A stretch of DNA of 64,000 nt from Candidatus Bathyarchaeota archaeon (GTDB taxonomy: Archaea > Thermoproteota > Bathyarchaeia > TCS64), in the NCBI GenBank assembly GCA_026014815.1, contig JAOZHP010000048.1, forward strand, positions 39,322 to 103,321, given 5' to 3'. The notes under the pieces are model-generated. The model had not been told where the DNA came from, did not search any database, and was given only the letters and a program-made list of their open reading frames with translations. The position numbers and the translations under genes are program-made. Of this stretch, positions 57,381-59,440 are shown in pieces (position 1 is the first letter of the stretch; each line of letters opens with the position of its first letter).

Positions 57381-57420
57381 CTCAACCAGTTTCACCATGA
57401 TTTTTAGTTGTTTGGGAAGA

Positions 57421-57474
57421 TGGTTTAGAGGCTGCGACGGGGTAAAGGTGCGAACCCCATATTCCTCTAAACCA
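57421..57474 (+). ncRNA. Candidate structured RNA: 11-bp perfect stem with inner hairpin
   Basis: TGGTTTAGAGG (57421-57431) pairs with CCTCTAAACCA (57464-57474); inner GGGGT/ACCCC or GGU-GCGA-ACC. Confidence 0.45.
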
Positions 57475-57624
57475 CTCCGGATTGTAAAGTTTCCTTTATC
57501 GGTAAATAACAGCTTATTTGTACTGAAATATGACGGACACAACCATCAAAACACGTGATAATTGACGGTATCAACCGATAACTATCGGAAATAATTATAA
57601 ACCCCTAAATCGTTCAATGGATTC

Positions 57625-57690
57625 GGCGGGTGAGTGGGACCTCCTACCCGTTCCGCCCTAAAAATCCCGGAGCAAGGAGGTAAGGAAACA
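57625..57690 (+). promoter_or_regulatory. Candidate SD-sequestering pseudoknot leader of queT (riboswitch-like)
   Basis: Stem GG-CGGGU/ACCCG-(UU)-CC; loop contains ACCUCCU (57639-57645), exact complement of SD AGGAGGU (57675-57681); AUG at 57690. Confidence 0.55.
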
Positions 57691-58163
57691 TGAAAACGAA
57701 AGATATTTCACTGATTACAGTGTTCGCCGCACTTTACGCGGCAATGGTAGTGGTGTTCGCACCGATAAGCTTCTACGCGATACAGTTCAGAGTCGCAGGT
57801 GTTCTCAGGCCAGGCATAGCTAGAAAACGTGAGCTAGCCATTGCCTACGCCATTGGAACCGCTGTCGCTAACATATTCAGTCCCTTCGCGGGGATATACG
57901 AGATACTGTTCATGCCTGTAATGAGCCTTATAGCTGGGTTTGCAGGCTACGAAGCGTCAAAGAGATTCAAAGGCAACTATTTTGTCTGTGGCGTAGTCAT
58001 CGCGTTGATTATCCCGGTGAGCGTCTCTTGGATGCTTAATCAGCTCTTTGGGTTGCCCATGGTCGCGACTCTTCCAGGCATCCTAATCGCTGAACAGGTG
58101 ATAAACATCATAGGCTCAACCTTGTTCAAGATGATAGAGTCCAGGTACAGGTGGTGGGAGTAA
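57690..58163 (+). CDS. queT: QueT-family (COG4708) transporter
   Basis: 'FYAIQFRVAGVLRP...AIGTAVANIFSPFAGIYEILFMPVMSLIAGFAGY'; coupled to queC. Confidence 0.75.
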   Translation: MKTKDISLITVFAALYAAMVVVFAPISFYAIQFRVAGVLRPGIARKRELAIAYAIGTAVANIFSPFAGIYEILFMPVMSLIAGFAGYEASKRFKGNYFVCGVVIALIIPVSVSWMLNQLFGLPMVATLPGILIAEQVINIIGSTLFKMIESRYRWWE

Positions 58164-58810
58164 TGAAGAAAGCGGTCGTAATACTAAGCGGCGGCCCGGA
58201 TTCGGTAACTGTAGCCTACTGGGCGAAGGCCAAGGGATACGATGTGCACGCCGTCACATTCAATTACGGGCAGAAGGCCCAGATCGAGATACTGAAGGCA
58301 GTGGAGACAGCGGCAGAGCTAGGCATCAATCACAAGGTCATAGACCTGTCAAGTCTCTCAGATATCTATGAGGGAGTAACTAGCCTCGTCGATAAACGGC
58401 TTGAGGTGACAGGGGAGTTCACGGATCCCATCATCGTGCCCTTCAGGAACGGCGTATTCATCGCCGTGACGGTGGCTTACGCTGACGGCATCGGTGCAAA
58501 CCACATTTTCTATGGAGCCCACGCGAGTGACGAGCCCTTCTACCCAGACTGCAGGAAAGAGTTCTATGAGGCGTTTCAAGAAGCAGCAAGACTAGGCACA
58601 GAGAAGCCAATAACCATAATGTCCCCATACAGTGACACCTCCAAATCTGGTATACTGGAGGACGCGTTGAAGCTGGGTGTACCATTAGAGAAGACTTGGA
58701 GTTGCTACCTAGAGGGTCCGGTGCATTGTGGTGGATGCGAGTCATGCAACAACAGGAAGAAGGCGTTCATTGAGGCAGGGATACCTGATCCGACTGAGTA
58801 CATCTCTTAG
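58151..58810 (+). CDS. queC: 7-cyano-7-deazaguanine (preQ0) synthase QueC
   Basis: 'VVILSGGPDSVTVAYWAKAKGYDVHAVTFNYGQKAQIEI', C-terminal 'CHCGGCESC'-type Zn site. ATG at 58163 likely the real start. Confidence 0.92.
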   Translation: MVGVMKKAVVILSGGPDSVTVAYWAKAKGYDVHAVTFNYGQKAQIEILKAVETAAELGINHKVIDLSSLSDIYEGVTSLVDKRLEVTGEFTDPIIVPFRNGVFIAVTVAYADGIGANHIFYGAHASDEPFYPDCRKEFYEAFQEAARLGTEKPITIMSPYSDTSKSGILEDALKLGVPLEKTWSCYLEGPVHCGGCESCNNRKKAFIEAGIPDPTEYIS

Positions 58811-58855: not shown

Positions 58856-59440
58856 ATGAATATCAAGATAGTGCGCCTCATGGCCATCTTCGGGGTGGTA
58901 GCGCCCTTTCTGGGGCTTTTCATGATTGTCCTCAGCGCCAGTTTTACATCTGGCTGGAGTTTCTGGGCGCATCCCCTAAGTGACCTTGGTAGCGGTGAGT
59001 TCGGTGCTACCTTGTTCAACAGCGGTCTCGCCATGACAGGGTCTTTGATGCTTCTGTTCAGCACGGGGCTCTTTGAGCTTACCAAACGTGACACCGTTGG
59101 CCAGATAGGGAGTGTACTGTACCTCGTTATCTCAGGCATCGTCGTGGTGCTTAGTTTAGCGACTATCGAGGTGCAGCCTCATCACAACTATCTCGCCACG
59201 GCGTTGTTCGTGCTCACCCCATTGACTATGATGTTGTTCGCCTTGTATCTCTGGAGGAAAGAGATGAAGACCTATGCATACCTCAGCGCTGCTGCTGCCA
59301 TACTTGGTGTAGCAGCCTTCGCCATCAGTGGACCAGTGACAGGGTTCAAGGAGGCAATCAGCCTCACCGGGCTAGGCGTCTGGGAGATAGCTTTAGGGCT
59401 CTGGATGAGGAAACAGACTGACCCCTACGAAGAGTTCTGA
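58856..59440 (+). CDS. DUF998-type membrane protein
   Basis: Multiple TM helices; 'HPLSDLGSGEFGATLFNSGLAMTGSLML'. Confidence 0.75.
   Translation: MNIKIVRLMAIFGVVAPFLGLFMIVLSASFTSGWSFWAHPLSDLGSGEFGATLFNSGLAMTGSLMLLFSTGLFELTKRDTVGQIGSVLYLVISGIVVVLSLATIEVQPHHNYLATALFVLTPLTMMLFALYLWRKEMKTYAYLSAAAAILGVAAFAISGPVTGFKEAISLTGLGVWEIALGLWMRKQTDPYEEF

Follow-up and report, generated by a model that had tools for sequence, protein, structure and literature searches.

The window, by which we mean the whole 64,000-nt stretch of DNA analysed, carries queT followed by queC, the start of the second gene overlapping the stop of the first (TAATG). The first-pass annotation had recognised both genes, and the Pfam and TIGR profiles agree (PF06177 for QueT; PF06508 and TIGR00364 for QueC). 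Read 5' to 3', the segment 57625-57681 in front of queT is GGCGG GUGAGUGGG ACCUCCU ACCCGUU CCGCC CUAAAAAUCCCGGAGCA AGGAGGU. Its last seven nucleotides (57675-57681) are the Shine-Dalgarno sequence (SD), which ends 8 nt before the queT ATG at 57690. The features, in order, are:

57590..57604, plus strand: A/T-rich stretch resembling a TATA box (AATAATTATAAACC region), some 25-35 nt upstream of the element, read from the window sequence
57625..57629, plus strand: S1 5' strand GGCGG, partner of 57653-57657
57630..57638, plus strand: L1 GUGAGUGGG, with invariant G57630 and U57631
57639..57645, plus strand: S2 5' strand ACCUCCU (anti-SD), covarying with the SD by strand-swap tests
57646..57652, plus strand: L2 ACCCGUU, with CC, G and the final U 98-100% conserved
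57653..57657, plus strand: S1 3' strand CCGCC, showing compensatory pairs with 57625-57629
57658..57674, plus strand: L3 CUAAAAAUCCCGGAGCA, containing the conserved AAA-n-CCC
57675..57681, plus strand: S2 3' strand AGGAGGU, the queT Shine-Dalgarno, from the sequence and the pseudoknot parse of related leaders
57690..58163, plus strand: queT, ECF transporter S component (PF06177, E 1.7e-16)
58163..58810, plus strand: queC, 7-cyano-7-deazaguanine synthase (PF06508, E 1.1e-61; TIGR00364 above cut-off)

As the first-pass annotation had pointed out, ACCUCCU at 57639-57645 is the exact complement of the SD. As controls we took 123 other ORFs of the window and of related contigs that have an SD before their start; in none of them do the roughly 60 nt upstream contain such an exact 7-nt complement of the SD. 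In the 153 upstream regions compared, the A+T maximum falls 26-35 nt ahead of the element, and this is also where TATA-like words are concentrated. The usual archaeal spacing between TATA box and start site would place the start of transcription next to S1. By the TATA position the element thus forms the beginning of the mRNA and is essentially the whole leader. Single-sequence minimum free energy folding of the leader gave nothing unusual (z -0.45); the evidence for its structure is comparative.

Pseudoknot architecture and covariation

An H-type pseudoknot parse fits 154 distinct leaders, with an S1 of 5 bp and median sizes of 9 nt for L1, 7 bp for S2, 7 nt for L2 and 17 nt for L3. The start codons mostly lie 2-10 nt past S2. 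The earlier proposal of an H-type pseudoknot that hides the queT SD is upheld by these relatives, in which both stems show compensatory changes. The first stem had been drawn in the wrong register, however: leaders with GGCGC/GCGCC break the proposed GGCGGGU/ACCCG-UU-CC stem and keep S1.

The register of S1, 57625-57629 with 57653-57657, is fixed by compensatory pairs. At 57629-57653 the G-C pair flips to C-G, and at 57625-57657 G-C is replaced by A-U, C-G or U-A. Over 100 leaders 99.4% of the S1 cells are paired, double-sided changes occur in three of the five pairs, and the covariation score, which was reached by none of 500 shuffles, is lost when the register is slid. We also wrote a tree-aware covariation null in the style of R-scape. 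Among 1953 column pairs, the S1 pairs 1-42 and 5-38 (alignment columns) ranked first and second, of which 1-42 alone was significant (E ~0, compared with E 0.37 for 5-38).

Because variable loop lengths put the S2 columns out of register in the model-based alignment, S2 was tested by strand swapping, using 13 hand-chosen divergent representatives. Pairing of each loop with its own SD scored 17.6, against 12.4 +/- 0.86 after swapping, and none of 20000 permutations reached the observed value. Pairing is kept even though the SD has changed, as in UUUCCGAC/GUCGGAAA, UGCUCCGU/ACGGAGCG, CCUCUCA/UGAGAGG and UUCGCA/UGCGAA. The first-pass annotation had made its reading depend on conservation of the loop-SD pairing in related leaders; the pairing is conserved, even in leaders whose SD has departed from GGAGG. 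Since it is maintained there by compensatory change, the loop is not merely a look-alike of the 16S anti-SD.

Several unpaired positions are nearly invariant. GU at 57630-57631 is 100% conserved, CCG at 57648-57650 in L2 and the last U of that loop (57652) are 98-100% conserved, and in L3 the AAA at 57662-57664 is 100% and the CCC at 57666-57668 97-100% conserved. In their near-invariance, the unpaired GU, CCGUU and AAAnCCC segments resemble those of an aptamer. A variant with a CCGUU-like L2 and an L3 ending in CCCCAAA occurs at six loci (L015, L024, L028, L094, L095, L177). An alternative hairpin, 57634-57638 with 57643-57647, would free the SD and, by a simple word test, is possible in 103 of the 154 copies.

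Distribution and downstream genes

When 61 genomes were searched for homologues of QueT, 30 loci were added, and the element is common to 26 of their leaders, from which we built covariance model R1. Within the window's class (Bathyarchaeia-type), R1 finds the element in 186 of 257 genomes and in 98 of the 120 good ones; the genomes are mostly metagenome-assembled, their sequences are related rather than independent, and the model E-values are rough. The element also occurs in other families of the window's phylum (model R1, repeated with model R2) and is present in Methanomethylicia and Thaumarchaeota-type lineages. The model scans covered two phyla, and bacteria were covered by one pattern scan, with at least 119 matches listed. 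Among the matches listed for this strict DNA pattern in GTDB genomes are Bathyarchaeota, Methanomethylicota (including Methanosuratincola and Methanomethylicus), Thaumarchaeota/Nitrososphaerota and one Asgard. Viral contigs gave no match to the strict pattern. One record titled 'bacterium' (L246, JAJPJY010000158.1) agrees with G075, a member of the window's archaeal class, in the contig position of the element, and appears to be mislabelled.

In the phylum that contains the Asgards, model R2 gave matches in 15 of 228 genomes. We accepted 13 of them, each having at least one match with a QueT homologue directly after it; 14 ORFs from these loci match a QueT profile. Some Asgard loci (L313-L316, L320-L323) have a divergent form with AGCGGGUGGGA and an L2 of CCGUGCU or CCGAGUU, in which S2 pairs are of the type UUCGCA/UGCGAA and the SD itself is poor. 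Weak model matches at L088, L096-L101 and L324 made no sense beside QueT and were set aside as chance, and L325 is a partial model match with no readable gene.

Directly behind the element, the first gene (n=144) encodes QueT (PF06177) in 135 cases, QueC in one and a second membrane family in eight. The commonest second gene is queC (44 of 70). The proteins of this second family are about 232 aa long, and their genes lie at L062:1563-2258, L092:765-1481, L164, L165, L169, L170, L171 and L173. Two of them, scanned permissively, matched no Pfam family or gave weak matches below the cut-off; the family has weak profile similarity to QueT, and its predicted structure is of low confidence (pLDDT 57). 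At L092 the gene is followed by queC. We consider this family a candidate for a further 7-deazaguanine transporter. A sequence search of the PDB with both transporter families gave no match.

The genome of the window contains TGT, and neither PTPS/QueD nor QueF was detected in it. Genomes of the class have QueT and often QueC, yet PTPS/QueD is found in just 33 of 257. The matches to TIGR03365 (QueE) are partial and of a generic radical-SAM-like kind in nearly every genome, G147 and G179 being the exceptions. The picture that emerges from the gene context is one of salvage of a 7-deazaguanine that feeds tRNA modification, and genomes of the class are possibly dependent on an imported precursor, perhaps CDG. 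With TGT present, PTPS/QueD and QueF not found and PTPS rare in the class, control of salvage makes sense.

A candidate riboswitch for a 7-deazaguanine

The pseudoknot is conserved, is associated with queT and queC and has the SD inside S2. It thus combines general traits of translational riboswitches: a conserved 5' leader structure that overlaps the ribosome-binding site and stands before a metabolically coherent set of genes. Association with queuosine-precursor genes and a pseudoknot that contains the SD, here the covarying anti-SD/SD helix S2, are in addition traits of the preQ1 classes. We think that the leader probably acts as a translational OFF riboswitch for an intracellular 7-deazaguanine, a reading in which ligand binding, the ligand and the OFF direction are all inferred. 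Transcription would start at or just before 57625, and S1 and S2 would fold as an H-type pseudoknot, with the conserved GU, CCGUU and AAAnCCC forming the ligand pocket. At high levels of this compound, its binding would stabilise S2 and bury the SD, so that translation of queT-queC falls; at low levels the SD would open, and the transporter and QueC would be made.

Archaeal TGT is described as using preQ0 (PMC11298593). For this reason, and because QueF, the enzyme for making preQ1, was not detected in this genome, preQ0 is tentatively our first choice of ligand, ahead of preQ1, CDG, the archaeosine base or queuine. CDG is a further possibility, given that queT is followed by queC and QueD was not detected.

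The absence of a match to a known preQ1 class, suspected from the start, holds for the models themselves: Rfam 15, with preQ1-I, -II and -III (RF00522, RF01054, RF02680) included, gave no match up to E 10 for the window or for an Asgard leader. L015 gave only chance matches to unrelated families, and none of 16 loci had a match at the Rfam gathering cut-off. PreQ1-II (RF01054) also precedes queT and controls translation through a pseudoknot helix, P3, that buries the SD (PMC11625349), but it is larger, with P1-P4, and confined to Bacillota, whereas the archaeal element has two stems only and the conserved GU, CCGUU and AAAnCCC. PreQ1-III (RF02680) shares the position before queT genes, a pseudoknot and a proposed SD/anti-SD pairing (PMC11625349), but its expression platform is remote from the pocket and it is known from Ruminococcaceae and metagenomes. 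The type III form of preQ1-I (RF00522) likewise covers the SD by means of a small H-type pseudoknot (PMC11625349), but is found almost only in Pseudomonadota and has another consensus. A 2024 review of preQ1 riboswitches makes no mention of archaea (PMC11625349). Bacterial riboswitches are well documented. For archaea, a 2021 paper names a single natural riboswitch as determined by experiment, the fluoride (crcB) switch (PMC8241225); it too is presumably translational, but its ligand is an ion, its genes and RNA family are unrelated, and it occurs in bacteria as well. Our searches of a large body of open-access literature on archaeal riboswitches, archaeal preQ1, queT leaders and archaeosine turned up no account of the element. 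It is probably a new archaeal riboswitch class. Whether this class is specific to archaea (Thermoproteota and Asgard), is unrelated in its fold to the preQ1 classes of bacteria, and senses preQ0, CDG or another non-preQ1 7-deazaguanine to control salvage in mostly QueD-less lineages, is in our judgement an even bet.

The conserved loop bases could also be those of a protein site. An RNA-binding repressor that prevents translation of queT by attaching to the pseudoknot, with no small molecule bound directly by the RNA, would account for them, since the sites of autoregulatory proteins have such bases too. Nevertheless, the element has no regulator gene linked to it, its first and second genes being those of QueT, QueC and unrelated proteins, and a compact H-type pseudoknot with a buried SD before a transporter gene is typical of riboswitches (PMC11625349); we regard a repressor as unlikely. 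The ligand of a riboswitch might instead lie outside the 7-deazaguanines, for example a purine, if archaeal QueT-like proteins carry something else. Their substrate is putative, and the element also precedes genes of another transporter family, one that has no Pfam match. Against this stand the frequency of QueC as second gene, its one occurrence as first gene and the order second family then QueC at L092, which make such a ligand distinctly improbable.

Low translation is expected from SD pairing alone, and strong versions of S2 would form without ligand and could act as a constitutive damper. Damping of this ligand-free kind would work without invariant residues outside the helices. Since GU, CCG.U and AAAnCCC keep 97-100% conservation across divergent archaea, we give a ligand-free structure, whether damper or RNA thermometer, very little chance. 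Least credible, to the point of being negligible, is a DNA operator or a chance likeness of the loop to the 16S anti-SD, with no function in RNA. CCUCC is indeed the core of the 16S anti-SD, and the upstream region is conserved, but the compensatory changes already contradict this explanation: pairing is kept while loop lengths vary, and it persists in sequences far from a standard SD. Moreover, with the TATA box some 30 nt upstream of it, the element falls within the transcribed region, and the control starts contain no comparable complement.

If the riboswitch reading is correct, archaeal lineages, Asgards included, would own metabolite-sensing RNAs of a compact, widespread and apparently archaea-specific class. 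The element would then offer a handle on the scavenging of archaeosine precursors, its association with other genes would point to further 7-deazaguanine transporters, and a 60-nt SD-based switch would become available for archaeal genetics.

Neighbouring features of the window

The same intergenic region contains, at 57420-57475, a strong isolated hairpin, GGTTTAGAGG...CCTCTAAACC, with an inner GGGGT/ACCCC stem. Its folding z is -5.7 on the minus strand and -3.5 on the plus strand; it matches no Rfam family and has no second copy among the loci compared. Directly behind queT-queC, at 58856-59437, the window encodes a DUF998 membrane protein, and a DUF998 gene is the second gene after five other copies of the queT leader element.
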